A stretch of DNA of 32,153 nucleotides, taken from positions 1 through 32,153 of IMG/VR virus record IMGVR_UViG_3300006928_000041, one strand, 5' to 3'. Position numbers and translations under genes: made by a program. Positions within the stretch are counted from its first letter, which is position 1. Each line of letters opens with the position of its first letter. Source of the DNA: a virus. This document shows positions 2,989-26,469 of this stretch, one piece after another. The notes beneath the pieces were generated by a model, which was not told the DNA's origin, searched no databases, and saw only the letters and a program-made list of their open reading frames with translations.

Positions 2989-3022
2989 TTTACAGGTAAG
3001 CGAGAGTGGTTAGTATCTACTC
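2989..3022 (+). promoter_or_regulatory. Early-type promoter P1 in front of the head-module cassette
   Basis: It has TTTACA (2989-2994), a 16-nt spacer, TAGTAT (3011-3016), then 6 nt to the ATG at 3023. A run of seven T and a G precede the -35. The block just after the -35 (GGTAAGC) matches the other eight copies of this promoter, which all lie in the early region. The predicted transcription start coincides with the start codon. Confidence 0.75.
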
Positions 3023-3349
3023 ATGATTAATAACACTGACATGACAAACCAAATCCAAAACCTAACCGACCTCACCGAGATGGAACAAATCACCATAAAG
3101 GGAATCGCCTTAAATGAATATCAGCCTAATGGAAAACAACCCAAGCTTCTCAAGGATGGTTCTGTTGACCATACTCCTGTTTATACTGATGACCTAAATG
3201 AAATCATCAATTCTTTTGAAAATCGCAAGAGCTTATCTGGCTGTGTAAGTTCTTTGGTTAAAAAAGGATTAGTTTGGGCCGATGGCGATTGCATCGGATT
3301 CACCGAAAATGGTGAAAAATTAATTCTTGATCTGTGTTACTCAAACTAA
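3023..3349 (+). CDS. Small winged-helix-like protein in an independent transcription unit (moron candidate)
   Basis: This is a 108-residue protein of unknown function. Its C-terminal half (about 68-105) has the look of a winged helix: a helix with S-L-S-G-C-V-S-S-L, then K-K-G-L-V, a short hairpin and an x-F-T-E-N-G-E-K turn. The start at 3023 is chosen because it sits 6 nt behind P1's -10; an ATG at 3041 is an alternative and would give a 6-nt shift in residue numbering. The gene has its own early promoter and a strong intrinsic terminator right after it, while the genes on both sides are late structural genes. This is the classical layout of a phage moron. Codon use is less AT-skewed (more C-ending codons) than the epimerase before it and resembles the early genes. 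It may regulate or alter the host; no function is shown. Confidence 0.8.
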   Translation: MINNTDMTNQIQNLTDLTEMEQITIKGIALNEYQPNGKQPKLLKDGSVDHTPVYTDDLNEIINSFENRKSLSGCVSSLVKKGLVWADGDCIGFTENGEKLILDLCYSN

Positions 3350-3364
3350 TAAATCTAAAAACCA

Positions 3365-3386
3365 AGGGGCTTCGGCCCCTTTTTTT
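3365..3386 (+). terminator. Intrinsic terminator of the head-module cassette
   Basis: A 6-bp stem AGGGGC/GCCCCT closed by a TTCG tetraloop is followed by six T. It ends the transcript from P1 before the gpW-like gene. Late transcripts entering from terL would also have to pass it, which suggests antitermination or a separate late promoter downstream. Confidence 0.9.
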
Positions 3387-3415
3387 AGCGAAGTGGGACA
3401 AAATACTATAGGTAG

Positions 3416-3655
3416 ATGGCAGCAAATATATCAGTAGCAGATTTAACTACTCTGCGAGATAATCTAGTGACAGCGTACCAGACGTTGACCACAAACCCTA
3501 CGAAAAGCTATCAGCTTTCTGATAGAATGTTCACTTATGAGGATCGTGCTGAGATTTGGTCTGAAATCAACAGATTAACTCGCTTAATCTGTTTGCAGAC
3601 AAGTTCAACTAAAGCTTTAGGGTCGAATAGGTTAGATTTACAACAGTGGTCTTAA
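3416..3655 (+). CDS. gpW-like head-completion protein
   Basis: This 79-residue protein sits directly before the portal gene, exactly where lambda W lies between A and B. Lambda gpW is a small helical protein that joins the head after packaging so the tail connector can bind. Here an N-terminal helix (V-A-D-L-T-T-L-R-D-N-L) and a second helix (R-A-E-I-W-S-E-I-N-R-L) flank a short strand pair, as in gpW (68 residues). Position and predicted shape support the call more than residue identity does. No Shine-Dalgarno motif is seen; the sequence GGTAG is adjacent to the ATG. The portal ATG follows 1 nt after the stop, so the two are co-translated. Confidence 0.65.
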   Translation: MAANISVADLTTLRDNLVTAYQTLTTNPTKSYQLSDRMFTYEDRAEIWSEINRLTRLICLQTSSTKALGSNRLDLQQWS

Positions 3656-3656
3656 T

Positions 3657-5108
3657 ATGAATCTGTTTCAAAGAGCTAAAACAGCATTACAAATAGCCTT
3701 TGGCTATGATGCCATCTTAAATACTCGCTCAAGAAAAATTAGGGGTCTTGAGCCGATTCGGTCCGAAGAGATAGAAATTCAAGGATATGATCGTGAAAGG
3801 CTTATTAGCACATTGCTTAATTTCAAGCGAAATGATCCTGTAGTAAAAGCTATTTCTAGGCTAAGAAAAACAGATGTTGTTGGTTCTGGAATTTTACCTC
3901 AACCTGCTACTGGAAATGAGGATTTAGATAAGCAGATTAGTGATTTATGGCATAAATGGAGCGAATATCCTGAAATAACAAGGCAAATGGATTTCTGTGA
4001 GCTTCAACAGGAGGTCATAGATTCAACTCTTACCTTTGGCGATATTGGAGTTGTTTTTACAAAAGGTGGTTATTTACAGGTTATTGAGGGTGATAGAATT
4101 AGTAGCAGCACCTATGTTTCTTCTGAGGCTTCTAATAATAAAAATGGCGTAATTGTAGGGAAAAAAGGCCAACCTGTTTTTTATGAAATCGCAGACAGGA
4201 TCAATGGAGCATTAACTAATTTCACTCAAGTTCCTGCTAAAAGTTTTTGCCTCTTTTATAAGAGGATGAGGCCAAATCAATATAGAGGAGTTCCAGAATT
4301 AGCTCCCTGTGTGAATTCATTGCAGGATATTAAAGAATATGAATCAATAGAAATGATTTCCGCAAAGGTTTCAGCCAGTTTATCTGCTGTAATTAAGCGA
4401 AATGATAGTGTCCAATTTGAATTAGCAAATAGGCTTGAAGAAAATTTGCAAGATGAAGTTGGTAGGTTAGAAAGATTTGAAGCTGGCAAATTCCATTATT
4501 TAGAGCCGAATGAGGATATTCAGACAATTTCAAGTTCAGGCAGACCTAACGTGGATGGAATTGATTTCTGTATGTATCACCTCAGAAAAGTTGGGGCTGC
4601 TGTAGGAATTCCTGTAGAGATGATAATGTCAACTATTGGAGAATCTTCATTCAGTGCCTCACAGGGTTTGATTTTACAATATCAAGCTGCAATAGAAGAA
4701 AATCAAAGGCGTTTAGTATATTTTCTTAATAAAATTTACAAATGGAAATTAGGCTTATGGATTTCTGAAGGAAAAATAAACATCCCAGCGGATGTAGATG
4801 TGACAAGAGTAAGGTGGCAAAAACCTGCTTTTCGTTGGGTAAATAAAGCTGCTCAAGTTAGGGCAGATTCAACTTATGTATCTATGGGAGCGCAATCTTT
4901 AGATGATATTGCTTCACAATTTGGGAGTACGGCTTCAAGTGTTTTAGAGCAAAAGGCTAAAAATATTGTAACAGCTAAAGAATTAGCTGAAAAATATGAT
5001 ATAAGTGATTGGCGCGAATTATTTAATCCTTCAGGAAGTGTTAGCCAAAGCGCAAATTACCTTGATCTTTTAGATATGGATAATGGAGAAATTAAAAATG
5101 ACAGCTAG
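3657..5108 (+). CDS. Portal protein, lambda gpB family
   Basis: The portal forms the dodecameric ring at the head vertex through which DNA enters and leaves, and docks the terminase. This 483-residue protein has the family's usual length. It shows the N-terminal pattern N-D-P-x-V-x-x-A-x-x-x-L-R-x-x-x-V-G-x-G (about 58-78), the segment F-x-E-L-Q-Q-x-x-x-x-S-x-x-x-x-G-D (about 114-130), GVPELAPC, and late GESSFSASQG and W-x-x-P-A-F-R-W motifs typical of lambda-type portals (PF05136). It follows the gpW-like gene by 1 nt and its last codons overlap the next ATG (5098). Family membership is clear. Confidence 0.93.
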   Translation: MNLFQRAKTALQIAFGYDAILNTRSRKIRGLEPIRSEEIEIQGYDRERLISTLLNFKRNDPVVKAISRLRKTDVVGSGILPQPATGNEDLDKQISDLWHKWSEYPEITRQMDFCELQQEVIDSTLTFGDIGVVFTKGGYLQVIEGDRISSSTYVSSEASNNKNGVIVGKKGQPVFYEIADRINGALTNFTQVPAKSFCLFYKRMRPNQYRGVPELAPCVNSLQDIKEYESIEMISAKVSASLSAVIKRNDSVQFELANRLEENLQDEVGRLERFEAGKFHYLEPNEDIQTISSSGRPNVDGIDFCMYHLRKVGAAVGIPVEMIMSTIGESSFSASQGLILQYQAAIEENQRRLVYFLNKIYKWKLGLWISEGKINIPADVDVTRVRWQKPAFRWVNKAAQVRADSTYVSMGAQSLDDIASQFGSTASSVLEQKAKNIVTAKELAEKYDISDWRELFNPSGSVSQSANYLDLLDMDNGEIKNDS

Positions 5109-6758: not shown

Positions 6759-6766
6759 GAAAAAAA

Positions 6767-7135: not shown

Positions 7136-7153
7136 TACAAGGAGATATAAAGA

Positions 7154-8083
7154 ATGAGTTATTTTATTTCTAGTTCTGCTACATTTCAGCCTGTAGTTGC
7201 TGAAGCTTTAAACGAAGTGCAGGATCAACAATTTGTTGGTTCTCAAATTCTTCCTCTTTTAGCTACTGGCACTAAAGCAGGTGAATATGTTGTGGTGAAA
7301 GCAAATCAGTTTGATAATGATATTAGCAAGCCCCGTGCTGCTGGTGCTAATTTTGCTAACACCTCATCTGAGATTGAATCTGCTACTTATACTTGCCAAG
7401 AGTATGGTGTGGAGCAATCTTTAGATGATTTATCTATTGCTGAGATCGAGTCTGACGCGCAATTTGATATTGTTGCTGCTGCTTCTCGCAATATCGCTCG
7501 CAACCTTATGGTTGGTCATGAGCTTCGTGTTGCAAATGCAATTAGTGGTGCTTCTTTTAACAGCACAGCCGCTACTGCTGCGTTCAGCAATGCCTCTGGT
7601 GCTACACCAATCAACGATGTGAATAATGCTGTTCAGCGTCTTAACGCGAATGGAATTTTCACGGGAATTCAACTCATCATTGAATCTAGTCTCTATCAAG
7701 AGATGGTTCAAACTGATGATATGCGTTCTTTGATTAACGGCAGCGGAGCTTTGAGCTTTGGCCAAGATCAAGTTGCTAGAGTTCTTGGTGTTGATGGAAT
7801 CATTATTTGTAACAGTCGTTACAATGCAGCTAAAAAGGGCCAATCTGCTTCACGCACTAAGATTTGGTCTGACAGCGACTTTTATGTCGGTGCAGTTGCA
7901 AGTGGCCCTCTGAGCAATAATGGAATTGGTCGCACCTTGTTTTATACAGGCCGACAAAGTGGGGCATTCGTCGCCGAAACATTCCGCACTGAGCAGCCCC
8001 CTGCTAATGTGGTTCGCGTTCGGATGATGACTGATGAGTTAATCTGCAACACGCTTGCTGCAGAGAAAATCACAGGAGCCTAG
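7154..8083 (+). CDS. Major capsid protein
   Basis: This 309-residue protein is the shell subunit, judged by its position after protease and decoration genes and by its HK97-fold-like composition. The N-terminus is Q-P-V-V-A-E-A-L-N, followed by Q-F-V-G-S-Q-I-L-P-L, the opening seen in lambda gpE-type and related capsid proteins (preparing a long E-loop). The central part has an Ala-rich spine helix region and the C-terminal third has V-A-R-V-L-G-V-D-G-I-I-I. No propeptide is obvious, consistent with a separate scaffold in the upstream protein. AAGGAG sits about 9 nt before the ATG, stronger than most genes here, as expected for the most abundant product. A perfect 11-bp hairpin lies immediately downstream. 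Confidence 0.88.
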   Translation: MSYFISSSATFQPVVAEALNEVQDQQFVGSQILPLLATGTKAGEYVVVKANQFDNDISKPRAAGANFANTSSEIESATYTCQEYGVEQSLDDLSIAEIESDAQFDIVAAASRNIARNLMVGHELRVANAISGASFNSTAATAAFSNASGATPINDVNNAVQRLNANGIFTGIQLIIESSLYQEMVQTDDMRSLINGSGALSFGQDQVARVLGVDGIIICNSRYNAAKKGQSASRTKIWSDSDFYVGAVASGPLSNNGIGRTLFYTGRQSGAFVAETFRTEQPPANVVRVRMMTDELICNTLAAEKITGA

Positions 8084-8099
8084 TTGGGTGGAGAACAAA

Positions 8100-8127: not shown

Positions 8128-8136
8128 CTATTTAAA

Positions 8137-9230: not shown

Positions 9231-9280
9231 AATGGGACAAATAACTAAAAGTATAACGAACTAAACAAAAGGAAAAATAA

Positions 9281-9634: not shown

Positions 9635-9641
9635 TAGTTAG

Positions 9642-10247
9642 ATGAACGCACAAGAGCTATGGGCTGAATATCAGCCAAAGCTCGAAGCTGCTAAAGAGCA
9701 AGATAGAAAAGATTCTCAGGAAGTATTTTTAGATGCACCTGAAAAAGTTGGCAGCATTTGGCTTTGTCCTTTAAGTATTAAAAAATACTTAATGCTAGAT
9801 GCTATTTCGCATCCGTTTCTTAACAAAGGCGAATTAACAGAAGAAGACATTTATACTTTTTGTTGGGTTCTATCTGTAGATTTTACAGAAAAAAATCCTC
9901 AAGCGTATAAAAATTTTAAAGAAAGTCTCCGCATGGACAATGCGGAGGCTTTTCTTATTGATGTTAGACTGTTTTTTGAGAATCAATTAAATTTTTCTGA
10001 TTCAGATTCTAAATCTACATCTCAAAATTCAGATTGGGTTGGGATAATTATTGATCTTTTAGCATCTGAATATAATTGGAGTGAAGATCAAATTTTGAAT
10101 TTACCTATAAAGAGAGCATTAACTTACAGTAAACATATTGCTCATAGAAAAGCGGGAGCAGTTTTGAATTGGCAGAGAAATGCTGATAGAGTTAAAGCAG
10201 AATTCATGGAAGAAATGTCCAAGTTAGAAGGCAATAAAGATGAGTAA
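9642..10247 (+). CDS. Putative tail assembly chaperone
   Basis: This 201-residue protein lies between the tube and tape-measure genes, the position of the lambda G/GT chaperones that coat the tape measure during tail assembly. The C-terminal part (about 132-170: W-V-G-I-I-I-D-L-L-A-S-E-Y-N-W, then I-L-N-L-P-I-K-R-A) matches the common chaperone pattern of Trp followed by a hydrophobic-Pro helix. It ends 8 nt inside the tape-measure gene. I looked for the usual -1 frameshift extension and found none: the -1 frame stops at once after the one plausible slip site. A hairpin with a short T-run lies inside the gene at 9927-9954. Confidence 0.6.
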   Translation: MNAQELWAEYQPKLEAAKEQDRKDSQEVFLDAPEKVGSIWLCPLSIKKYLMLDAISHPFLNKGELTEEDIYTFCWVLSVDFTEKNPQAYKNFKESLRMDNAEAFLIDVRLFFENQLNFSDSDSKSTSQNSDWVGIIIDLLASEYNWSEDQILNLPIKRALTYSKHIAHRKAGAVLNWQRNADRVKAEFMEEMSKLEGNKDE

Positions 10248-17589: not shown

Positions 17590-17743
17590 GGTGGTTTTTG
17601 TAGATACGCAAGCAGATTTAGTTAGGTTGGGGCCAGATGTAAAAGGAACAGTTTATGTCAGCAAAGATGGTCAGTGGATTAAATCCAAAAATAAAGTTCA
17701 TTTGCCTGAAGGCTGGATAGCAGGGCCATTACCTAAAAATTAA
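17519..17743 (+). CDS. Small lipoprotein, outer-membrane spanin candidate
   Basis: This 74-residue protein begins with an N-terminal hydrophobic signal sequence (about 1-17) ending in L-G-T-A-C. The cysteine at residue 20 is the expected lipidation site, though Gly at -3 makes the lipobox imperfect. The mature part is short with V-V-F-V-D-T-Q-A-D, V-R-L-G-P-D-V-K-G and L-P-E-G-W-I-A-G-P-L-P, a conserved-looking phage pattern. A small lipoprotein whose gene overlaps another small lysis gene fits an o-spanin (Rz1-like), implying a host with an outer membrane. A GTG one codon upstream is a possible start too. The remaining doubt is that mature spanins are usually proline-rich, which this is only near the end. 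Confidence 0.68.
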   Translation: MQILLKILSVGGMIMLGTACGTTRVVFVDTQADLVRLGPDVKGTVYVSKDGQWIKSKNKVHLPEGWIAGPLPKN

Positions 17744-17852: not shown

Positions 17853-18606
17853 TTCAGGATGGAAAAAATTTGTTGCTGTAGGTGATAATCATGGTGCTTT
17901 AGGTTGTAAAAAATCTTTAAGAGCATTAATAAAATTTTGCGATCAATGGAAACCTGATCTCAAGATTCATCTAGGTGATTGTTTCGATTTCGCAGGTTTA
18001 CGTTCTGGCATATCATCAGATGATAGTGCTGCTGCTGATGATTTATCTGAAGATTTCTTTTATGGATTTCAATTTCTTACAGAGTTTGAACCTGATGTTT
18101 ATTTATTAGGCAATCATGAAGATAGGCTTTGGAGAATTGCAGGAAGTCATTCTAATGGGATGATGAGATTAGCTGCTGATAATTGCATAGATAGAATTAA
18201 AACATACTGCAAAAAATTAAAAACAAAACTAATTCCATATCATGCAGAAACAGGTTTGCATTCAGAAGCAAATGGAAATCTAATTTTCCTACATGGCTAT
18301 TCAGCAAATGCAAACGCAGTAAAAGAACACGCTACACATTATGCTGCTATGGGTGGAAGTGTGATAATGGGGCATCTTCATAGAGTAGAAATTCAAACAG
18401 GAAAAAGGCAAGGAGGAAGCCACGGATATTCAGCAGGTTGCATGGCAGATTTTTCTAAAATGGATTATGCAAAAAATAGATTAGCAACTGCTGGTTGGGA
18501 AAATGCTTTTGCATTTGGAGTTTATAAGGGCGAATCTGTAAATGTTTGGATAGCTAGAAAATGTGGAACTAAATGGCTGCTGCCAACAGGAATGGAGGAA
18601 TTTTAA
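17845..18606 (+). CDS. Calcineurin-like metallophosphoesterase
   Basis: This 253-residue protein carries the full set of metal ligands of the family in order: D14-x-H16-G, G44-D45-x-F-D, G89-N90-H91-E92-D93, H150-G and G176-H177-x-H179. It is therefore expected to be an active two-metal phosphodiesterase or phosphatase. Phage members act on nucleic acids, nucleotides or other phosphoesters and the target here is not readable. The start at 17845 (MANSGW) is preferred to upstream non-ATG starts because it is the first ATG in frame and overlaps the previous stop by 8 nt. It lies at the end of the late region, between lysis-type genes and a DNA-binding protein. Its stop overlaps the next ATG (TAATG). 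Confidence 0.92.
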   Translation: MANSGWKKFVAVGDNHGALGCKKSLRALIKFCDQWKPDLKIHLGDCFDFAGLRSGISSDDSAAADDLSEDFFYGFQFLTEFEPDVYLLGNHEDRLWRIAGSHSNGMMRLAADNCIDRIKTYCKKLKTKLIPYHAETGLHSEANGNLIFLHGYSANANAVKEHATHYAAMGGSVIMGHLHRVEIQTGKRQGGSHGYSAGCMADFSKMDYAKNRLATAGWENAFAFGVYKGESVNVWIARKCGTKWLLPTGMEEF

Positions 18607-18842
18607 TGGATAAAAAAACAGCAAGAGAAATAGCAGAAAAACTTTTATCTATTAATGAATCGGAGAAAGTCCCAGAAGGCTGGTTCACAGTTAGAGATTT
18701 AGCAAAAATAAAAGATGTATCATATTCTCATGCAGGAAGAATTTGCAGGGAATTATCAGCAGATGATAAATTGGAAACTCGTAAATTTAAAATCAATACA
18801 CCTAGAGGATTTTACCCAATTCAGCACTATAAATTCCCATGA
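18606..18842 (+). CDS. Small winged-helix DNA-binding protein
   Basis: This is a 78-residue protein with an N-terminal helix (T-A-R-E-I-A-E-K-L-L) followed by a winged-helix pattern: W-F-T-V-R-D-L-A-K, then S-Y-S-H-A-G-R-I-C-R-E-L as the recognition helix, then K-L-E-T-R-K-F and F-Y-P-I-Q-H-Y as the wing strands. The start at 18606 is chosen because GGAGG sits 8 nt upstream. It closes the late operon just before a terminator and the early region, so it could act on the adjacent promoters. That regulatory idea is inference. Confidence 0.75.
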   Translation: MDKKTAREIAEKLLSINESEKVPEGWFTVRDLAKIKDVSYSHAGRICRELSADDKLETRKFKINTPRGFYPIQHYKFP

Positions 18843-18906
18843 GTATACAATTTTCTTTAAATCAGTGAAAACATGAAAAAACACTGAAATTGCTTGCCCT
18901 GAGAAT

Positions 18907-18930
18907 CGCCTGTAAGGCGTTTTCTTTTTT
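18907..18930 (+). terminator. Intrinsic terminator closing the late operon
   Basis: CGCCT-GTA-AGGCG stem with T-rich tail TTTTCTTTTTT. It lies 64 nt after the winged-helix gene. Confidence 0.75.
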
Positions 18931-19095
18931 CCCGAATATGTTTATATGCCCTTTTGAAAACTAAAGGGGAGCGATTTCTCGCTCCCCCCTAACACTGATA
19001 ACTAATAACTAACATCTAACCCAAGATGTGGTTAGAATCTAAATTCAGACTCCAAATCTGTCAAAATTTTTTTTTCATTTTTTCTATCTTTTTTG
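18931..19095 (+). other. Late/early boundary with strong hairpins, no gene
   Basis: The gap between genes is 288 nt. After the terminator it holds a perfect 9-bp hairpin at 18966-18987 (GGGGAGCGA, loop TTTC, TCGCTCCCC), which is followed by a T-run only on the minus strand. Next comes a TAACTAA-rich stretch, a second small hairpin CATCT/AGATG near 19014-19029, and a weak CAGA/TCTG hairpin followed by nine T near 19050-19078 that could also terminate. A regulatory or origin role is possible; nothing proves it. Confidence 0.6.
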
Positions 19096-19130
19096 TTTAC
19101 AGCCTAGCCGATAAGGTATAGATTCTATCT
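19096..19130 (+). promoter_or_regulatory. Early promoter P2
   Basis: TTTACA (19096-19101), 17-nt spacer, TAGATT (19119-19124), 6 nt, ATG at 19131. Preceded by CTATCTTTTTTG, shared with P3 and P4. The post -35 block is GCCTAGCC. Confidence 0.85.
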
Positions 19131-19430
19131 ATGCTTAACGGCACTAATAACACTGAACAAAAAAAACTGACAATGACCGCAACCAACGAAATATTCACTT
19201 ACAACTCAAGCACAATACAGAATAACGGAACAACTTTCCTTAATCCTAAAGCTGCAACCTTCGAGATTGTATACAAGGCAGATGGGCTAGAGGGTCAATT
19301 CGTAGCCAAAGGGGAGAACGAAGAAATTGTTCGCCAAGATGCGATGGAACTGTTCTCCAAAAAGGGTTTCAAAAACATTGAAATCAGTGTCACCGAATTC
19401 CTTCTTCCAGAAGAATTTTATATCGCCTAA
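19131..19430 (+). CDS. Small early protein with MLNGTN start
   Basis: This 99-residue early protein is not recognised. The first 14 codons come from the block ATGCTTAACGGCACTAAT shared with four other early units. A second ATG at 19173 begins M-T-A-T-N-E and may be the ancestral start, giving 85 residues. The C-terminal half (V-Y-K-A-D-G-L-E-G-Q-F-V-A-K-G, then a helix, then I-E-I-S-V-T-E) looks like a small alpha/beta fold. The start ATG is only 6 nt from the -10 of P2, so the transcript is expected to be leaderless. No Shine-Dalgarno motif precedes either start. Confidence 0.72.
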   Translation: MLNGTNNTEQKKLTMTATNEIFTYNSSTIQNNGTTFLNPKAATFEIVYKADGLEGQFVAKGENEEIVRQDAMELFSKKGFKNIEISVTEFLLPEEFYIA

Positions 19431-19469
19431 TAAATAATTAAAAAACTAACACTGAACCTAAAAACTAAA

Positions 19470-19841
19470 ATGAAAATAGAAATCACATACGAACAACTTA
19501 ACTGGCTACGTCAAGCGATGAGCGATTCACTTTTAAACAGCTTGTTGAAAGAAGAAAATAAAAATATGCCGCATCGCCTCCAACAAGACATTTGCGTTGA
19601 AATAGAAAAACTTCAAAAGGATATTTCAAACTGCACACCTGAAGATTCCTACGAGCCAAGGGAATACAGCCTCAGTTCTCAGGTCTCCGCTATACACAAC
19701 CTCCGCGATCACATTGATGACGAGCTTTGGAAGGAGTACGACAAGCATATGCAAAGCCATCCGTTCCCTGATACTTATCACGCTACGTTTGAAGAAGTGC
19801 AAAACAAGGAAGCAACACGCGAACGCCGCCTAAAACTCTAA
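19470..19841 (+). CDS. Hypothetical early protein
   Basis: This 123-residue protein of unknown function is mostly helical and charged, with an N-terminal Y-E-Q-L-N-W-L-R-Q-A-M helix and no membrane segment or cysteine cluster. Codons end in C or G more often than in nearby genes. It is second in the P2 unit. The leader reads ACTAACACTGAAC...AAA before the ATG with no Shine-Dalgarno motif. A hairpin lies 14 nt after the stop. Confidence 0.72.
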   Translation: MKIEITYEQLNWLRQAMSDSLLNSLLKEENKNMPHRLQQDICVEIEKLQKDISNCTPEDSYEPREYSLSSQVSAIHNLRDHIDDELWKEYDKHMQSHPFPDTYHATFEEVQNKEATRERRLKL

Positions 19842-19855
19842 CTGATAAAAACTGC

Positions 19856-19873
19856 GGGGAGGGAAACCTCCCC
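19856..19873 (+). other. GGGGAGG/CCTCCCC hairpin between early genes
   Basis: A 7-bp stem with GAAA loop, the same stem-loop as the terminator at 20583 but followed by CCAAAAA rather than T. On the minus strand it is followed by GCAGTTTTT, so it could stop antisense transcription. It may also stabilise the upstream mRNA. Confidence 0.65.
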
Positions 19874-19893
19874 CCAAAAAACTAACCTAACTA

Positions 19894-20283
19894 ATGAAGA
19901 TGAAAAAACAAACAATATACAGAGAAAAGCTACAAGAAAAATCTGACAGGCTTTTAAGAGAAAAAATCTTTGAAGAGGTAGAAATATTTTTCACAAAAAT
20001 GGGAACTGGTAAAAGACACGCTGTTGATAAATCACTAATCAATGCTGTTAATAAAAAAATCCATGAGGTTTTAGATCAGCCAAGCTTCATTGAATTAGAA
20101 AGTAAAAGGAGCAAAATAGTAGATGATATGCTTGTTCATGATAATTATTCTCCAGAGATGGAATTGCTTGTAGATGAATTAAAGGAAACGCATACACGAT
20201 TATTCTTTTGGCTTTCAAAAGAGGAACAAAGAGAATTCTGCATAAAGCAAACTGAACTTGAAGAGGAAAAATATTCTTCTTAA
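19894..20283 (+). CDS. Hypothetical helical early protein
   Basis: This 129-residue, highly charged and largely helical protein (many E-K and R-E runs) is not recognised. The ATG at 19900 is an equally good start. The leader is ACTAACCTAACTA with no Shine-Dalgarno motif. It ends just before P3 and is more AT-rich than the gene before it. Confidence 0.7.
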   Translation: MKMKKQTIYREKLQEKSDRLLREKIFEEVEIFFTKMGTGKRHAVDKSLINAVNKKIHEVLDQPSFIELESKRSKIVDDMLVHDNYSPEMELLVDELKETHTRLFFWLSKEEQREFCIKQTELEEEKYSS

Positions 20284-20301
20284 AAAAATCTATCTTTTTT
20301 G

Positions 20302-20336
20302 TTTACACGCTAACGGTTTGTGATTATATTCCTATT
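20302..20336 (+). promoter_or_regulatory. Early promoter P3
   Basis: TTTACA (20302-20307), 17-nt spacer, TATATT (20325-20330), 6 nt, ATG at 20337. The post -35 block is CGCTAACGGTT. Upstream CTATCTTTTTTG matches P2 and P4. Confidence 0.88.
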
Positions 20337-20573
20337 ATGCTTAACGGCACTAACACTGAACTAAAAAACGAAATGACACCTGAACAATACAAAAAAGAAA
20401 TCGACAGCCTATTATTTCAAATTTCTGAAATGCAAAAAGTTGTTGATAAATTTGAGGCTGGCTTAATTCCTTACTATGAAAATATTAAAGCAACTAAACA
20501 CGTTCTAAAAAATAAAAGGAATCGTGTTAAAATGTTGGTATTTGTTTTCAATAACCATAAAGCAAATGCCTAA
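20337..20573 (+). CDS. Small coiled-coil early protein with MLNGTN start
   Basis: This 78-residue protein starts with the shared MLNGTN block. The rest, from a second ATG at 20373 (M-T-P-E-Q-Y-K-K-E), is one long amphipathic helix pair: I-D-S-L-L-F-Q-I-S-E-M-Q-K-V-V-D-K-F, then a Pro-Tyr turn, then a basic helix. It is alone between P3 and an intrinsic terminator, so it is a single-gene unit. No function is recognised. Confidence 0.72.
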   Translation: MLNGTNTELKNEMTPEQYKKEIDSLLFQISEMQKVVDKFEAGLIPYYENIKATKHVLKNKRNRVKMLVFVFNNHKANA

Positions 20574-20582
20574 ATAAAATCG

Positions 20583-20605
20583 GGGGAGGGAAACCTCCCC
20601 TTTTT
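20583..20605 (+). terminator. Intrinsic terminator after the P3 unit
   Basis: GGGGAGG-GAAA-CCTCCCC followed by five T. The T-rich stretch runs almost directly into P4. Confidence 0.88.
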
Positions 20606-20619
20606 ATCTATCTTTTTTG

Positions 20620-20653
20620 TTTACAGAGTAAGAACTTATTTTAAATTAATCTC
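20620..20653 (+). promoter_or_regulatory. Early promoter P4
   Basis: TTTACA (20620-20625), 16-nt spacer, TAAATT (20642-20647), 6 nt, ATG at 20654. The post -35 block is GAGTAAG. Here the ATG begins a 10-codon leader ORF, not the main gene. Confidence 0.8.
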
Positions 20654-20686
20654 ATGCTTAACGGCATCAATAAAAACACTAACTAA
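20654..20686 (+). other. Ten-codon leader ORF (MLNGINKNTN) before the DUF932 gene
   Basis: This is the shared ATGCTTAACGGCA block, but a TAA follows after 10 codons. The DUF932 start lies 8 nt after this stop. It shows that the block can exist as a 5' leader separate from the protein-coding body. It may be a translated leader that delivers ribosomes to the next start. Confidence 0.6.
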
Positions 20687-20694
20687 CTAATACA

Positions 20695-21681
20695 ATGCAT
20701 AATATCCAAGAACGCGACATCCAAACAGGCTTAAACCAAGCATGGCACGGCCTGACAAACGTAGTAGATACTGTAACCAAAGAAAATTCAGGCATCATGT
20801 ATGACCTAAATTTTAATCGGCTCACTTATACTGCTCCTGATGAAACAGTAATTGAAACCGACAGCTACCAAATCAGTGCTGCTGATGATAATTTGCCGAT
20901 TGGCAAACCTGTTTCTAAAAAATACCAACCATTCAGCAATGAACAAATTTGGGATATGCTGGATGAAGCCTTAAAAGGAACTCATCATGTAATTCAATCT
21001 ATTGGAACTGTAGCTGATCGTTCATTAGGATTTGTTTCAGTAAAAATTGCTGATTCTTTTAATGCTGCTGGTCGTGAACATGATCCATTTCTAAATATCG
21101 GTTGGGGGCATGGCGGTACACTCGGTGTTATCGGAAAAACAGGAATCACCTGCGTTGTTTGCGAAAACACTTTCAACGCTGCGATGGCAGAAAAATCTGA
21201 CTTCAAGGTAAAATTAAAGCACACTCGCAATGCTAATCTGATGGATTTAACTGACGCGATTGAAGCACACATCGGCGTAACTGCTGAGTTTCAAATGGCA
21301 CTTGAACACATGGGCCAAATTAAATGCCAATCACATAATGCACAACGGATGTACCTCGGCCATTTGCTTGAAAATAAAGCTGATAAAAAGGTATCAAGCC
21401 GAACTGTAAATGTGATGAACAGAATGACCGAACTCTACCGAGAAGGTAAAGGCAACTCTGGTGAAACTATGGCTGATTGTTTCAACGGCTTAACCGATTA
21501 TTATACTCATGAATCTGCTGGCGGTTTGGAAAATACCCGCAAGCAATTTGAAAGTTCCGAATTCGGTTCTGGGAGCCAAAACAAATCTCGCTTTTTTAAA
21601 AATATCCAAAAGGATCATGGCGAAGAACTCCTAGCCATTGGAAACAAATACTGGGAGGATGCCATGCTGGTATCTAATTAA
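20695..21681 (+). CDS. DUF932 phage/plasmid protein
   Basis: This 328-residue protein belongs to the DUF932 family of phage and plasmid proteins. Marks are Q-A-W-H-G-L-T near residue 16, the central G-H-G-G-T-L-G-V-I-G-K-T-G-I-T-C-V-V-C-E-N-T pattern and the later D-Y-Y-T-H-E-S-A-G-G-L-E-N segment. No biochemical activity is established for the family that I can rely on. It is the largest early gene, alone between P4 and a strong terminator, and has codons richer in C and G than neighbours, consistent with high expression. The start is preceded by ACTAACTAATACA with no Shine-Dalgarno motif. Confidence 0.87.
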   Translation: MHNIQERDIQTGLNQAWHGLTNVVDTVTKENSGIMYDLNFNRLTYTAPDETVIETDSYQISAADDNLPIGKPVSKKYQPFSNEQIWDMLDEALKGTHHVIQSIGTVADRSLGFVSVKIADSFNAAGREHDPFLNIGWGHGGTLGVIGKTGITCVVCENTFNAAMAEKSDFKVKLKHTRNANLMDLTDAIEAHIGVTAEFQMALEHMGQIKCQSHNAQRMYLGHLLENKADKKVSSRTVNVMNRMTELYREGKGNSGETMADCFNGLTDYYTHESAGGLENTRKQFESSEFGSGSQNKSRFFKNIQKDHGEELLAIGNKYWEDAMLVSN

Positions 21682-21696
21682 AAACCCACCTCCTCG

Positions 21697-21726
21697 GGAG
21701 GGGCAGAAATGCCCCTCCTTTTTTTT
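21697..21726 (+). terminator. Strong intrinsic terminator fused to promoter P9
   Basis: GGAGGGGCA-GAAA-TGCCCCTCC followed by eight T. The T-run continues directly into the G-TTTACA of the next promoter. A competing hairpin, CCTCC (689-693 of this kilobase, i.e. 21689-21693) with GGAGG (21697-21701), would block the terminator stem. Confidence 0.9.
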
Positions 21727-21727
21727 G

Positions 21728-21762
21728 TTTACATTTTGCTCCTCCAAATTAAAGTCCAAACA
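21728..21762 (+). promoter_or_regulatory. Early promoter P9 (divergent member)
   Basis: TTTACA (21728-21733), 16-nt spacer, TAAAGT (21750-21755), 7 nt, ATG at 21763. It lacks the TAACC-type block after the -35 and the MLNGTN start. It supports 21763, not 21709, as the gene's start. Confidence 0.65.
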
Positions 21763-22605
21763 ATGGGAAATGCACTGAAGCTAGGAATAGTGGGAAATGG
21801 TTTTGTTGGAAACGCTACGTCTGGCTTGTCCTGCAAGAAAAATTCTGTTTTTATCTATGATCGTGTAGATTACAAATCGCATCCTCATAATTGCACAATG
21901 GATGATATTAGGTCTTGTGATTTAATATTTATTTGTTTGCCAACTCCAATGAATAAAGAGGGTGATTGCCATACAGATTTTATCTCACAAGCTATCGCTG
22001 ATTTTTCAACTGAAGAAAAAGCTAAAACATTTATACGCTCCACAACTCCAGTTGGCTTTTGCAAGGAATTAGGCGTAAATCATTTTCCTGAATTTCTAAC
22101 TGAAGCAAATGCTTCTGTAGATTTTATCGAAACAGATACATGGGTATTGGGAATTGATAACACCAATTTAGAAATTTATTCGTCAATTAAAGCTGCGCTT
22201 ACAAATGCTAAAGAAGCTAATGCAATTAAAAGTGATAATGTTTTTCTAACTCAATCAAATACATCTGAATTTATAAAGTTAGCTCGAAACAGTGTTTTAG
22301 CAACCAAAGTAAGCTTGTTCAATGAGCTTTACAAAATCGCTGAAGGAAAACACATCGGATGGAATGAAGCCTTAAATGGTATTTTAATAGATGATAGAAT
22401 AACATCCAGCCATACAAAGGTTCCTTGTAATGGGAATTTTGGTTTTGGTGGAACTTGTTTTCCTAAAGATATTTCTAACCTAATTAATTGCGCTAAAAAA
22501 TCTGATGTTGAAACATTCATTTTAGACGCTGCACAGGAAAGAAATAATAAGCTGGATAGGCCACTAAAAGATTGGGCCTTTGATATAAACCGTAGTGTGA
22601 TCTGA
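21763..22605 (+). CDS. UDP-glucose/GDP-mannose 6-dehydrogenase-like enzyme, short form
   Basis: This 280-residue protein belongs to the NAD-dependent family that oxidises UDP-glucose to UDP-glucuronate (or related sugars). It has the Rossmann G11-x-G13-x-x-G16, C-L-P-T-P-M (58-63), R-S-T-T-P-V-G (92-98), P-E-F-L-T-E (109-114), the Lys/Asn/Glu helix around K182-N187, and the catalytic cysteine motif G-F-G-G-T-C232-F-P-K235-D236. All catalytic residues I can check are present. It ends shortly after the central domain, so the third, C-terminal UDP-binding domain of the usual 390-440-residue enzymes is missing. The start at 21763 is set by promoter P9, and the upstream extension is hydrophobic and unlike the family. 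It is the only gene of its unit. Confidence 0.88.
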   Translation: MGNALKLGIVGNGFVGNATSGLSCKKNSVFIYDRVDYKSHPHNCTMDDIRSCDLIFICLPTPMNKEGDCHTDFISQAIADFSTEEKAKTFIRSTTPVGFCKELGVNHFPEFLTEANASVDFIETDTWVLGIDNTNLEIYSSIKAALTNAKEANAIKSDNVFLTQSNTSEFIKLARNSVLATKVSLFNELYKIAEGKHIGWNEALNGILIDDRITSSHTKVPCNGNFGFGGTCFPKDISNLINCAKKSDVETFILDAAQERNNKLDRPLKDWAFDINRSVI

Positions 22606-22680
22606 TTCTGCTAGAAACAGTACGCCTAGCTTCGTTTGTGAGCGTTCTTCTTAGCTCTCGAATATAAACATACCCCTGAG

Positions 22681-22702
22681 ATAACGTATGCCTATGCGTT
22701 AT
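22681..22702 (+). other. Hairpin in the gap after the sugar dehydrogenase
   Basis: A 9-bp stem with one G-T pair: ATAACGTAT, loop GCCT, ATGCGTTAT. A run of eight T begins only about 12 nt later, so it is a weak terminator candidate. The rest of the 162-nt gap holds no gene that I can support. Confidence 0.55.
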
Positions 22703-22732
22703 TCTACATACCTATTTTTTTTACTTTTTTTG

Positions 22733-22767
22733 TTTACAGGTAAGCCGTTTATGAATATATTCTATCT
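22733..22767 (+). promoter_or_regulatory. Early promoter P5
   Basis: TTTACA (22733-22738), 17-nt spacer, TATATT (22756-22761), 6 nt, ATG at 22768. The post -35 block is GGTAAGCCGTTTAT. Upstream is T-rich. Confidence 0.88.
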
Positions 22768-23001
22768 ATGCTAAACGGCACAAACAAAATCGAAAAACAA
22801 ATCGGCCTGAAACAAGGTAAAGATAAATTTGGTTGCAAGCAAACCGAACAACGCGCCAAACAAAATTTGGCTAAACTCAAAATGGCTAACGAGGTACTTG
22901 CTTTTTTGGAAACCAAATTAGGTGATAAGGCTGCTGGAGCAATGGATAATTTCCTTATTCAATACTCCATTGAAAATCTACACAAAACACTAATCAAATA
23001 A
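22768..23001 (+). CDS. Small basic early protein with MLNGTN start
   Basis: This 77-residue, lysine-rich, helical protein is of unknown function. The start block reads ATGCTAAACGGCACAAAC, a diverged copy that keeps MLNGTN. No second ATG lies close behind it, so here the block is probably truly part of the protein. It is followed after 5 nt by the next gene, in the same P5 unit. Confidence 0.7.
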   Translation: MLNGTNKIEKQIGLKQGKDKFGCKQTEQRAKQNLAKLKMANEVLAFLETKLGDKAAGAMDNFLIQYSIENLHKTLIK

Positions 23002-23006
23002 CTGAC

Positions 23007-23444
23007 ATGAAAACTAACACTGAAGTAACACTACTCACCATTGATAAAACGAATCCTAAAATTCAGGCAATTTGTAAAAATTACAATGATCGGATTGCTC
23101 GATATTTAGAACCTAAAACCAATATTTCTGATCCGAAATTTCGCAGAAAATCTGAAAAGTGGTTTGCAGAACAGGCCGATAAACTATGCGACCAACTTTA
23201 TGATATTTTGCTTTTAATACAGGAAACAACCACTGAATCAGGTGAACCTATTCTTAATTATGTGGATGATAGTGGCCATGTAAAATATGATTGCGAGCTT
23301 TGCACTATTGGAATTCCTATCTCCGCAACAAAGGAACAGGGAACTGGTTTCTGGTGCAAAGAACACTTTAAAACCGATGATGGTAAAATTAAAGAATTCA
23401 TGACCGAAGGTGATATGTCGGCCAAACTAATTCGTCAGTGTTAG
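23007..23444 (+). CDS. Early protein with a C-terminal zinc-finger-like motif
   Basis: This is a 145-residue protein of unknown function. Residues about 25-75 are helical and charged. Near 95-120 it has C-E-L-C and, 19 residues on, W-C-K-E-H-F, a C-x2-C...C-x2-H spacing that could hold zinc. The leader is AACTGAC with no Shine-Dalgarno motif. A large terminator hairpin follows 9 nt after the stop. Confidence 0.75.
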   Translation: MKTNTEVTLLTIDKTNPKIQAICKNYNDRIARYLEPKTNISDPKFRRKSEKWFAEQADKLCDQLYDILLLIQETTTESGEPILNYVDDSGHVKYDCELCTIGIPISATKEQGTGFWCKEHFKTDDGKIKEFMTEGDMSAKLIRQC

Positions 23445-23453
23445 TAAAACAAT

Positions 23454-23497
23454 CCCTGCTGCCCTCAAAGTCAGGTGAGGGTAGCAGGGGCCTTTTT
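23454..23497 (+). terminator. Long-stem intrinsic terminator
   Basis: CCCTGCT-G-CCCTCA pairs with TGAGGG-T-AGCAGGG across an 8-nt loop, giving a stem of about 14 pairs with one mismatch, then GCCTTTTT. No new promoter of the P family follows, so the genes at 23518 and 24107 need readthrough or another promoter. Confidence 0.85.
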
Positions 23498-23517
23498 AAT
23501 CTTAACGGAGAACAAAA

Positions 23518-24138
23518 ATGATTTATAAAAATACCACTAATCTAAATGATAAACTAATTCATAAGATGATTGCGTTCGCTTGCACACGCTGGCGGCAATT
23601 AACATCAGGCGATTTCAATAGAATTCCTAAATCACTTCATAATAAGTTTTTTAAGAAGCACATTCGTGAATTTACTATCACCAACAGAGAGGAAAATTAT
23701 TCAGGAGTGCATTATTACCTTGGTACAAATATAGGGTCAGAAATTAAATGTAGAATCGGAAAAAAATATAGGGGCAAATGGATTCAATTTGGAATCTGCA
23801 ATGAAAAGCCTGAAGATTATATTAAAAGAAATTTTCTTAATTATGAACGCGAGGTAATTGCAATGCACGTTATTGCTCATGAGGTTGGGCATGGATGTAT
23901 TCATCACAATGAATGCCATTCAAATAGAAAACCCAGTAGGCATTATGGAAAATCTAAAGGAGGAGATGAGGAATATATTGACCGAATTGCAGAAAAAATC
24001 ACACAGGAATTTTATGAACAGGGCCGACACCCATACATATCTGAATCTAACTTAAAGAAAATACTATCACTAAAACTAAATATAAACAGATTGAAAGATA
24101 CTAATAATGATTGGAAAGAATACAAAAACCAAGGATGA
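23518..24138 (+). CDS. Zinc metalloprotease-like protein (HExGH)
   Basis: This 206-residue protein has the zinc-protease helix A-H121-E122-V-G-H125, with histidines at 129-130 and an acidic segment G-G-D-E-E-Y further on. Upstream strands (F-T-I-T, H-Y-Y-L-G, W-I-Q-F-G-I) precede the helix, as in small SprT-like or metallopeptidase folds. The C-terminal 40 residues are basic. GGAG about 8 nt before the ATG is a good ribosome site. A phage protease in an early region could act on host proteins or stay inactive as a DNA-associated protein. The target is unknown. It overlaps the next gene by 32 nt. Confidence 0.78.
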   Translation: MIYKNTTNLNDKLIHKMIAFACTRWRQLTSGDFNRIPKSLHNKFFKKHIREFTITNREENYSGVHYYLGTNIGSEIKCRIGKKYRGKWIQFGICNEKPEDYIKRNFLNYEREVIAMHVIAHEVGHGCIHHNECHSNRKPSRHYGKSKGGDEEYIDRIAEKITQEFYEQGRHPYISESNLKKILSLKLNINRLKDTNNDWKEYKNQG

Positions 24139-24364
24139 AATAGATATTAAAAAGCTATTTGCTAATACTGTGGATGATAACATTCTTATGTTAAGAGAAT
24201 TAGAAACAGACCAAGATTCAAATGAAAGAAAAATTGAATCCTATAAAAAGGGCATAAAGGAAATGGAATTGAAGTTGTATGCATATAATAAAATTAAATC
24301 CATTATTGAAAATAAAATTACCACTGTAGAAAGTGTTATCCATATACAGGAGAATCAACCATAA
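24107..24364 (+). CDS. Small coiled-coil protein
   Basis: This 85-residue, highly charged, mostly helical protein has heptad-like Leu/Ile spacing from about 25 to 75. No function is recognised. It overlaps the metalloprotease gene by 32 nt, so it is co-translated. No Shine-Dalgarno motif is clear. Confidence 0.65.
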   Translation: MIGKNTKTKDEIDIKKLFANTVDDNILMLRELETDQDSNERKIESYKKGIKEMELKLYAYNKIKSIIENKITTVESVIHIQENQP

Positions 24365-24467
24365 ACTCGGTGCGTAGTTTAACGTCTAAGCGTACTTTAG
24401 AATATTGGTATATGATTACATACCCCATATACAGCCTGAAAAAAGTTTCATTTTTCTTATTTTATTG

Positions 24468-24502
24468 TTTACAGGCTAACACCTAACGTGTAAGGTTTCA
24501 CC
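24468..24502 (+). promoter_or_regulatory. Early promoter P6
   Basis: TTTACA (24468-24473), 17-nt spacer, TAAGGT (24491-24496), 6 nt, ATG at 24503. The post -35 block is GGCTAACACC. Upstream GAAAAAAGTTTCATTTT resembles P7 and P8. The 138-nt gap before the gene otherwise holds no gene I can support. Confidence 0.75.
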
Positions 24503-24673
24503 ATGATAACTGATTGCAACAAACAAATCACAAAGAAAACCCAACGGGGCGAAAAAATCACTTACACCAAACACTTCATGTTTGGAAAAACTGACCGATT
24601 GACCTCAGTGGTAGTTGCAAATAACGGAAAAGAAATTCTTTTGGATACAGGTGATTCAATCCGATTTGCTTAA
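24503..24673 (+). CDS. 56-residue early protein placed by its promoter
   Basis: This short reading frame starts 6 nt after the -10 of P6, the same spacing as in the other units, which is the main evidence that it is a gene. The protein begins M-I-T-D-C-N-K-Q, has a basic first half and a beta-like second half (L-T-S-V-V-V-A-N-N-G-K-E-I-L-L). Its function is unknown. It ends 22 nt before the next gene. Confidence 0.68.
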   Translation: MITDCNKQITKKTQRGEKITYTKHFMFGKTDRLTSVVVANNGKEILLDTGDSIRFA

Positions 24674-24695
24674 TTTTCTAACCTTAATAAATGCT

Positions 24696-25070
24696 ATGAA
24701 CTACGGCGAATTACGAAAACGATTTCAAATTAGAAAATTTGATGAGCAAATTTCTGAAATCAAAAAATTGCCAAATGCTAAATACTTTTTAGATAACGGA
24801 TGGGGAGCGTGGGCTTCTTATTCTTATGCAGAAGAGGGATTAGTAAAATGCAGAAAGAGCGGCAAACATTTTAGGCTGACAGGTTATATTGGCAAAATAA
24901 TTTTTAAATCTGGAAAAGAAATAGATGAAAAGCGATATAAAATCGGGCCTGAAATTGATTATGTTCAATATATCAGAGATGTTTTAAATGTTAAAATCAA
25001 AGCAGGAATTCTTCCTGCTGATTATGATATTGAAAACTATGTTCAAACCTCACCAAGCATGAATTATTAA
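24696..25070 (+). CDS. Hypothetical early protein
   Basis: This is a 124-residue protein with an N-terminal helix (Y-G-E-L-R-K-R-F) and a central G-W-G-A-W-A-S-Y-S-Y-A-E-E-G stretch with many aromatics, then strands with basic residues. No family is recognised. The start at 24696 is preferred; an upstream in-frame extension lies inside the previous gene and has a different, hydrophobic composition. It is second in the P6 unit. Confidence 0.72.
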   Translation: MNYGELRKRFQIRKFDEQISEIKKLPNAKYFLDNGWGAWASYSYAEEGLVKCRKSGKHFRLTGYIGKIIFKSGKEIDEKRYKIGPEIDYVQYIRDVLNVKIKAGILPADYDIENYVQTSPSMNY

Positions 25071-25094
25071 AATGAAAAAAGTTGCATTTTATGG

Positions 25095-25132
25095 TTTACA
25101 GCCTAGCCATTAACCTGTATAAACTAACCAAC
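25095..25132 (+). promoter_or_regulatory. Early promoter P7
   Basis: TTTACA (25095-25100), 17-nt spacer, TATAAA (25118-25123), then 9 nt to ATG at 25133, so a leader of about 3 nt. The post -35 block GCCTAGCC equals that of P2. Upstream GAAAAAAGTTGCATTTTAT is also found in front of P8. Confidence 0.85.
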
Positions 25133-25378
25133 ATGACTGCTAATAACCGAATCCAATATATCAAATCTAATCCAACACATATTTGCGTTGATTCAACTTA
25201 TTTTTCATTGACCCGTAACTATGCTTGTCCAAAAGCACGGTTCCAAATCAAGGGTTGCCTCGATATTGTGCAGTTCGATAAACAGAAATATTCTATCAAG
25301 CAGCAAATGCTCATCACGCTCGCTGAAAATTTTCACAACGCTTTTAACCTGTTCGTACTCAAAGGAGATTCAAAATGA
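25133..25378 (+). CDS. Hypothetical early protein
   Basis: This 81-residue protein of unknown function has a beta-like first half with two cysteines (C-V-D-S-T-Y-F and A-C-P-K-A-R-F) and a helical second half (Q-M-L-I-T-L-A-E-N-F). The start at 25133 is fixed by P7; upstream extension would place codons in the promoter. It overlaps the next gene by 4 nt. Confidence 0.72.
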   Translation: MTANNRIQYIKSNPTHICVDSTYFSLTRNYACPKARFQIKGCLDIVQFDKQKYSIKQQMLITLAENFHNAFNLFVLKGDSK

Positions 25379-25872
25379 ATATATTTATTTTAGATGATGA
25401 CCCTAAACAGGCTGCAGAGTGGTTATGCGATAAGCATATTTGCAAAATGATTGTCGAATCTGCACAAATGCTTTGTTCAGCCTATCCAGAAAAATATAAA
25501 GCACCCTACAAGGCAACATACATAAATCATCCTTGCACAAAGTGGACTCGTTCATCCCGCATGAATTTTAACTGGCTGTTAGATCACGCTTTCACATTGT
25601 GCGATGAATACACAAAACGCTACGGTAAAATCCACAAATCAGCACAGGTAATAGATTGGTGCTGGATGAAATCAAATAAACTTACCTTTCCTGCATACGA
25701 ACAAACTCCGTTTATAAAAGCTATGCCAGATGGATATAAAGTAGATTGCCCGATTACCTCTTATCGCAATTATTATAATCATGAAAAATCCCGTTTCGCA
25801 AAATGGGAACGTGGCAACAAAAATATTCCCTTCTGGTACAAGAACAAATATCAACCTGAACTAACTAAATAA
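25375..25872 (+). CDS. Conserved phage protein of the 'MNIF-x-LD-x-DP' type
   Basis: This 165-residue protein matches a pattern I associate with a widespread uncharacterised phage family: M-N-I-F-I-L-D-D-D-P, C-D-K-H-I-C-K-M-I-V-E-S-A-Q-M-L, N-H-P-C-T-K-W, then L-C-D-E-Y-T-K-R-Y-G-K and A-M-P-D-G-Y-K-V-D, S-Y-R-N-Y-Y. Conserved His, Cys, Asp and Lys suggest an enzyme. It has no membrane segment. I do not assign a reaction; relatives are sometimes named after pyrimidine-dimer glycosylases, which I cannot confirm here. AAAGGAG upstream is a strong ribosome site. Confidence 0.75.
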   Translation: MNIFILDDDPKQAAEWLCDKHICKMIVESAQMLCSAYPEKYKAPYKATYINHPCTKWTRSSRMNFNWLLDHAFTLCDEYTKRYGKIHKSAQVIDWCWMKSNKLTFPAYEQTPFIKAMPDGYKVDCPITSYRNYYNHEKSRFAKWERGNKNIPFWYKNKYQPELTK

Positions 25873-25874
25873 CT

Positions 25875-26075
25875 ATGAATCATTATCTCGTAATATTAAA
25901 TAACGGTGCTGAAGTCGAAGTGTTTGCTCCAAATTGGATGGTCGCTCCTGCTTACGCAATTAAGGAATACAGAGAAAAGAACCCTGATGCTCCTGATAAT
26001 TTGGGAATGACAGATATTAAGGCAGTAAATGCTGACGATATGGTAACGTGGGGAAAATCAGATAAGAAATTATAG
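25875..26075 (+). CDS. Small early protein
   Basis: This 66-residue protein begins with a strand pair (Y-L-V-I-L-N-N-G-A-E-V-E-V-F-A-P) and ends with a charged helix. The W-M-V-A-P-A-Y-A-I-K-E-Y-R-E core looks like a small alpha/beta unit. It starts 2 nt after the preceding stop. The function is unknown. Confidence 0.65.
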   Translation: MNHYLVILNNGAEVEVFAPNWMVAPAYAIKEYREKNPDAPDNLGMTDIKAVNADDMVTWGKSDKKL

Positions 26076-26078
26076 CTC

Positions 26079-26270
26079 ATGGATTACATAAGCGACCATA
26101 TTGAATACAAAAAAATGTGTGAAAAATATGGCGAGAAAGCTATATGGCAAGAACCAAATCACGCAAACGCTCAAGGCTATATAGAAGGTGATCGAAAAAT
26201 AACTCTAAAAGATTATCCAAAAAGGTTAAGGAATTATGGCAGAAGAAAATCAAATAAAGAAAATGGCTGA
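26079..26270 (+). CDS. Small basic early protein
   Basis: This 63-residue protein of unknown function has a basic C-terminus (P-K-R-L-R-N-Y-G-R-R-K). It starts 3 nt after the previous stop and overlaps the next frame by 35 nt. No Shine-Dalgarno motif is clear. Confidence 0.55.
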   Translation: MDYISDHIEYKKMCEKYGEKAIWQEPNHANAQGYIEGDRKITLKDYPKRLRNYGRRKSNKENG

Positions 26271-26415
26271 ATCATCTTCATTCGGAAGATTCCTAGCTAA
26301 CAAAAGCAACAAGGATAGAATCTGGTGCAGAAGTGATCTTGGTAGCAGAGCAGCAAGGCGAGCATCAGAACAAGCCCATAAGAGGGAACTGAAAAGGGCC
26401 ATGAAAAAAAAGTGA
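26236..26415 (+). CDS. Small arginine-rich protein
   Basis: This 59-residue protein has a basic C-terminal half (R-A-A-R-R-A-S-E-Q-A-H-K-R-E-L-K-R). A frame-overlap of 35 nt with the previous gene and a stop just before P8 fit the dense packing here. It is likely nucleic-acid binding by charge. No family is recognised. Confidence 0.6.
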   Translation: MAEENQIKKMAESSSFGRFLANKSNKDRIWCRSDLGSRAARRASEQAHKRELKRAMKKK

Positions 26416-26434
26416 AAAAAGTTGCATTTTATTG

Positions 26435-26469
26435 TTTACAGGTTAACCGTTTACCTATATATTCCTATT
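26435..26469 (+). promoter_or_regulatory. Early promoter P8
   Basis: TTTACA (26435-26440), 17-nt spacer, TATATT (26458-26463), 6 nt, ATG at 26470. The post -35 block is GGTTAACCGTTTA, a near palindrome. It is the last P-type promoter in the window and may transcribe through the recombination genes to the right edge, since no terminator is seen after it. Confidence 0.88.

Follow-up and report, generated by a model that had tools for sequence, protein, structure and literature searches.

Most of what is known about leaderless translation in phages comes from single genes, and to our knowledge the phage cases concern single genes or a few promoters. Transcription usually starts about 7 nucleotides (nt) after the -10 hexamer, and phage genes that carry their own promoter and terminator are known as morons. 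In the Cluster O mycobacteriophage Corndog, the promoters PL1, PR2, and PL2 and 17-bp dyad repeats have been described (PMC4351075). Here we analysed an IMG/VR virus contig of 32,153 bases (IMGVR_UViG_3300006928_000041; this whole stretch is called the window), in which nine promoter-like sites place an ATG 6-9 nt after the -10 hexamer. We consider it likely, judging from the sequences compared below, that these sites are copies of one portable leaderless expression cassette of approximately 90 bp. Such a portable promoter-start cassette is a more interesting finding than the leaderless reading alone.

Promoter-like sites and the repeat around them

All nine TTTACA sites reported by the initial annotation were found at their positions, which are listed here with strand and structure (ORF, open reading frame).

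2989..3025, plus strand: cassette 1, TTTACA-N16-TAGTAT-N6-ATG, start of a 108-amino-acid ORF (3023-3349)
19096..19133, plus strand: cassette 2, TTTACA-N17-TAGATT-N6-ATG (19131, MLNGTNNTE...), second in-frame ATG at 19173
20302..20339, plus strand: cassette 3, TTTACA-N17-TATATT-N6-ATG (20337, MLNGTNTE...), second in-frame ATG at 20373
20620..20686, plus strand: cassette 4, TTTACA-N16-TAAATT-N6-ATG (20654), opening a 10-codon ORF, MLNGINKNTN*
21728..21765, plus strand: cassette 5, TTTACA-N16-TAAAGT-N7-ATG (21763), UDP-glucose dehydrogenase-like gene
22733..22770, plus strand: cassette 6, TTTACA-N17-TATATT-N6-ATG (22768, MLNGTNKIEKQ...), without a second ATG in more than 30 codons
24468..24505, plus strand: cassette 7, TTTACA-N17-TAAGGT-N6-ATG (24503)
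25095..25135, plus strand: cassette 8, TTTACA-N17-TATAAA-N9-ATG (25133)
26435..26472, plus strand: cassette 9, TTTACA-GGTTAACCGTTTACCTA-TATATT-N6-ATG (26470, MLNGTNNTE...), second in-frame ATG at 26503

As originally described, the ATG follows the -10 by 6 nt at 2989, 19096, 20302, 20620, 22733, 24468, and 26435, by 7 nt at 21728, and by 9 nt at 25095. The -10 had been called TATATT-like at all nine; eight fit TANNNT, whereas 25095 has TATAAA. A G directly precedes TTTACA in every copy (9/9). The pattern TTTACA-N16/17-TANNNT occurs eight times in the whole window (both strands), and in all eight cases the -10 is followed by an ATG at a distance of 6 or 7 nt (8/8). The extended pattern TTTACA-N16/17-TANNNT-N6/7-ATG thus has eight matches, whereas its count in 300 dinucleotide shuffles averaged 0.047 and did not exceed 1. 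All copies in the window and in the related contig G013, introduced below, have the hexamers of a sigma-70-type promoter (TTTACA or TTGACA, and TANNNT, TATAAA, or CATYCT) at a spacing of 16-17 bp.

Most of the nine TTTACA hexamers are embedded in a longer repeat of 53-88 bp, of which 88 nt are common to four copies at 65-78% identity, with other copies sharing parts. Its order is a T-rich or A/T-rich tract, G, TTTACA, a GGNTAACCG-like spacer, the -10, CYATYT, ATG, and CTTAACGGCACTAATAACACTGAA. Because CTTAACGGCACTAATAACACTGAA is part of the repeat, the first codons (MLNGTNNTE) are copied between unrelated genes. The spacer holds a dyad core, ARCSGYTT, with a 1-nt centre and a fixed register in all three subgroups of the clade described below, displaced by 7 nt in three copies of the contigs G006 and G008. 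The spacer dyad and the first codons were overlooked as parts of the repeat by the initial annotation. Codons 2-11 of the cassette genes are rich in A+C (0.71 versus 0.56 in the window, p=0.001; 0.85 versus 0.56 in G013, p=3e-7), and their first 45 nt are less structured (-2.1 versus -4.3 kcal/mol in the window and -0.5 versus -5.6 kcal/mol in G013).

The cassette consists of an A/T tract, a G with the -35 (TTTACA in the window and TTGACA in relatives), 16-17 bp of spacer containing ARCSGYTT, the -10, 6-9 nt, the ATG, and C/A-rich, G-poor, weakly structured codons. In the mechanism that we propose, RNA polymerase with a sigma-70-type factor would most likely start at the A of the ATG or immediately upstream of it, yielding an mRNA that is leaderless or has a 0-3-nt leader; ribosomes would start at the 5' AUG, where the C/A-rich codons may aid them. 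Duplication and recombination would have spread the cassette, and unrelated genes would thereby gain the same promoter, start, and N-terminal tag.

Three predicted intrinsic terminators bound cassette units.

3365..3386, plus strand: intrinsic terminator AGGGGC-TTCG-GCCCCT-T7, closing the unit at 2989
20582..20606, plus strand: terminator with an 8-pair stem and a T tract, just 5' of cassette 4
21696..21726, plus strand: terminator with a 10-pair stem and a T tract, just 5' of cassette 5

From the ends of the latter two stems it is approximately 45-55 nt to the respective ATGs (20654 and 21763). A longer leader hardly fits there, since this leaves room for a core promoter and little more. The start at 21763 was checked independently, and its protein begins MGNALKLGIVGNGFVG, a Rossmann N-terminus.

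Conservation and exchange among relatives

Terminase searches retrieved a clade of virus contigs with three subgroups, including that of the window. Terminase identity to the window is 47% for G013 (IMGVR_UViG_3300006923_000070; 35,380 bp, guanine-plus-cytosine [GC] content 0.485) and 52-55% for G006, G008, G004, and G005 (GC approximately 0.52). G013 carries 12 copies of TTGACA-GCACAGCCGCTTTGCAC-(TAACTT or CATYCT)-N6-ATG or close variants, and the genes behind them begin with MTTTNETK or a closely similar sequence. The second group has TTKACA with SGCAAGCSGCTTG-type spacers and first codons that include MNDSNKQ and MNAANKT. A lack of conserved -10-to-ATG spacing in relatives had been named as what would speak against leaderless starts, and this was not what the relatives showed: in G013 the distance is 6 nt in 12 of 12 copies, and in the G006 group it ranges over 7-12 nt, mostly 8-9 nt, with one copy at 7 and one at 12.

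Motif models for the relatives and for a held-out test were built without any ATG. When the model trained on relatives was applied to the window, five sites ranked top, with scores of 13.2-18.4 compared with shuffle maxima of 7.2-10.4, and each had its ATG at 6 nt. In the reverse direction, the window-trained model recovered sites in G006 and G008.

Cassettes are absent from the more distant terminase relatives G019 and G022 (approximately 33% identity), and a single possible copy (d=8) was seen in the GC-rich G015. Relatives reached through the exonuclease or DUF932 had none or one copy, and a listing of 13-mer repeats in relatives was uninformative. Two broader interpretations were set aside. 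A generic host promoter was rejected, as the dyad promoter pattern has three matches in 84,980 bacterial and archaeal species, none with an ATG in place. The dyad core was also considered as a general mark of leaderless-type viral promoters: it marked 31 stretches versus 8 for a reversed-core control, yet outside the clade these comprise about 13 families, in several of which other promoters lack the core, and this idea was dropped.

The cassette units appear to be autonomous and mobile. G004 has two cassettes before two genes, and in G005 the first cassette is joined at the ATG to the second gene, which suggests recombination between cassettes. Window positions 24737-25069 are 88% identical to G008 and 26076-26265 are 93% identical to G006, compared with approximately 68% DNA identity elsewhere, indicating recent gene exchange across the GC gap with phages of much higher GC (0.51). 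The unit at 2989-3387 is missing from the closest relative (L013), where window positions 2020-3393 are replaced by less than 60 bp (an alignment gap), and G013 carries a cassette unit in its terminase-portal interval too, on the minus strand. The nine sites had been proposed to form a set of early operons; this does not suit site 2989, an insert in the terminase-portal part of the late region, and early timing of the cassette units remains an expectation.

We tentatively extend these observations to gene capture, in which a terminator-flanked promoter, a single regulator site, a leaderless start, and enhancing codons might form one mobile module of approximately 90 bp. If so, any ORF joined in frame would be expressed, under one regulon, and a dozen unrelated proteins would share an N-terminal tag.

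Leader length and alternative explanations

With the usual start point, a -10-to-ATG distance of 6 nt places +1 on the A of the ATG, whereas at 9 nt the leader would be 3 nt long (in the G006 group, ACA-ATG). The predicted leaders are therefore 0-3 nt in the window and its relatives, and once approximately 5 nt. Leaders of Lactococcus cremoris are shorter than 5 nt or approximately 40 nt, and lengths between 4 and 14 nt do not occur (PMC10986495), so that leaders of 0-3 nt fall in the leaderless class. CA repeats after the AUG raise leaderless translation in Escherichia coli (PMC9031893), and the C/A-rich codons and weak structure predicted here are as expected for efficient leaderless messages. 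Stress ribosomes of the MazF type were considered as a reason for leaderless use and set aside because they are disputed (PMC9031893).

Consistent with the initial annotation, no Shine-Dalgarno (SD) word was found upstream of the nine ATGs. Its contrast with the internal genes at 18606, 23518, and 25375 is weaker than claimed: these do have an SD-like GGAG, but SD-like words stand near any candidate start in 14 of 53 ORFs (chance rate 0.12 per position), and this low usage throughout the window weakens the contrast. The leaderless reading is supported, short of proof, by sequence and comparative evidence.

A number of observations weigh against it. A generic sigma-70 scan of 18700-26700 gave 27 matches versus 28.2 in shuffles, so that the signal lies in the extended motif and the ATG position rather than in the hexamers. 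The -10 hexamers of G013 (TAACTT, CATYCT) are weak, the window-trained model separates the G013 copies only marginally (13.8 versus up to 12.6 in shuffles), and copies within one genome are paralogous, hence not independent trials. One G006 copy (24408-24488; 6408-6488 in L032) has an intact -35 and most of the dyad with no ATG at the expected place. Leaders of phage AR9 span 26-491 nt (PMC5312081), so that short leaders are no phage rule. The prediction of near-zero leaders also fails to account for the gene behind site 20620, since the ATG there is not the gene's own start: the DUF932 gene begins at 20695, 8 nt after the stop of MLNGINKNTN* and 41 nt after the ATG at 20654. Four further genes carry a second in-frame ATG (3041, 19173, 20373, and 26503) preceded by A/C-rich sequence, and the sequence ahead of 20373 matches the leader of the internal gene at 19470 with 88% identity. 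Some cassettes may therefore yield two forms of the protein or serve as ordinary A/C-rich leaders.

At the G006 copy without an ATG in place, the gene begins approximately 50 nt further on, after a CCGCGAGGAACGCGG hairpin. Internal non-structural genes are preceded by A/C-rich, G-poor leaders (ACTAACACTGAACCTAAAAACTAAA, AACCCTAAACAGCAAAAGACA) rather than by SD sequences, and these resemble the first codons of the cassettes; they lie at 19445-19469, 20349-20373, and 22997-23024 in the window and also occur before internal genes of G006 (L032) and G013 (L064).

The second ATGs, five with that of the DUF932 gene, and the similarity of the 20373 and 19470 leaders are what would be expected if transcription started at a first ATG that is mostly a by-product and the C/A-rich stretch were a 20-45-nt non-SD leader for a second, used ATG. 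Another phage contig, G028 (L097), shows such an arrangement at 3731-3768, where TATAAT-ACACAC-ATG is followed by AAAGGAG and a second ATG, indicating that in other phages an ATG so close to the -10 is not necessarily the start. We regard this explanation as unlikely for the cassettes in general: there is no nearby second ATG at 22768, 24503, 25133, or 21763, in most of the 12 G013 copies, or in most G006 and G008 copies; all second ATGs outside site 20620 (4 of 4) are in frame, with no stop; and the second ATGs have no preceding SD.

Regulation offers another explanation, in which the sites would be a phage-wide operator for a dispersed repressor or activator, with a regulated promoter, and the closeness of the ATG would reflect packing in short intergenic space. 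The fixed register of ARCSGYTT in three subgroups, the tight packing of units behind terminators, and a gene for a predicted winged-helix protein, conserved immediately 5' of the cassette block, agree with it.

18606..18842, plus strand: 78-amino-acid predicted winged-helix protein, candidate dyad binder

This protein is conserved at that place in G006 and G008. Its structural model is a winged helix (predicted local distance difference test, pLDDT, 83.9), but none of its structural matches reaches significance (best E 0.02), and homologues also occur in G019 and G022, both of which lack cassettes; we treat it as a candidate and a lead only. Packing leaves the copying of first codons together with the promoter unexplained, and the predicted leader is short even where intergenic space is ample (22605-22768), which makes the operator alone quite improbable as the whole explanation. 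Within the portable leaderless cassette, the dyad is probably bound by a single regulator common to all units.

It is very improbable that the repeat is an RNA element within longer transcripts begun upstream, as suggested by conservation on both sides of the hexamers and by potential pairing at 22733 between part of the spacer and the start region (CCGTTTA and TAAACGG), because terminators lie no more than about 55 nt upstream of two ATGs, a dyad with a 1-nt centre is unable to fold as an RNA hairpin, the -35/-10 spacing is 16-17 in every copy, and the opposite-strand G013 copy is a separate unit.

Genomic setting and comparison with described systems

The contig is incomplete, at least on its left side, where it cuts into the large terminase gene; from the IMG sample numbers we take the samples to be marine. 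Its recognisable genes include the following.

1-1236: GpA-type terminase
3657-5108: portal
7154-8083: major head protein
10240-12570: tape measure
26908-27348: cell-wall hydrolase
28126-28875: RecT
29796-30875: PD-(D/E)XK exonuclease
30872-31339: RusA-like resolvase

Of the window proteins searched, none was assigned to an integrase or repressor family. The terminase has no match above 27% identity among annotated phages, and the portal and exonuclease match distant phages only. Host-like sugar-nucleotide genes occur in this 32-kb siphovirus contig, namely an NAD epimerase (2070-2969), which sits within the insert absent from L013, and the UDP-glucose dehydrogenase-like gene (21763-22605). 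Small ORFs after the tail genes (17519-17743) resemble overlapping, spanin-like lysis genes.

In the open-licence literature we found no description of a phage group with a duplicated promoter-start cassette. If many units do start leaderless from one duplicated module, they would be natural replicate constructs for leaderless efficiency (leader of 0 or 3 nt, CA-rich codons) and would reveal one way in which phages gain and express new genes; gene callers that rely on SD sequences may misplace starts in such phages.

Four described systems are comparable. Like the leaderless mRNAs of lambda cI, mycobacteria, and L. cremoris, the messages predicted here have an AUG within about 5 nt of the 5' end, no SD, and CA-rich downstream codons, which enhance translation in those systems (PMC9031893, PMC10986495); in contrast, 9-12 units per genome share one cassette here. 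Cluster O phages also have SigA-type promoters predicted to be leaderless, with +1 at the first codon base, and a repeated dyad (PMC4351075), but they have three such promoters only, their dyads are separate from the promoters, and the first codons lie outside the repeat. The SAS/ESAS repeats of Cluster K (PMC3203893) similarly place one repeat, sometimes with an inverted repeat, beside many non-structural starts of different families. SAS holds an SD core (AGGAG) in the position of a ribosome-binding site, whereas the window repeat has no AGGAG or other SD, is promoter-like with its -10 6-9 nt from the ATG, and runs through the ATG. The unit at 2989-3387 resembles a moron in its predicted promoter, its own terminator, and its sporadic presence, including absence from the closest relative, while most cassette copies differ from morons in forming a block in the non-structural region and in sharing their first codons.

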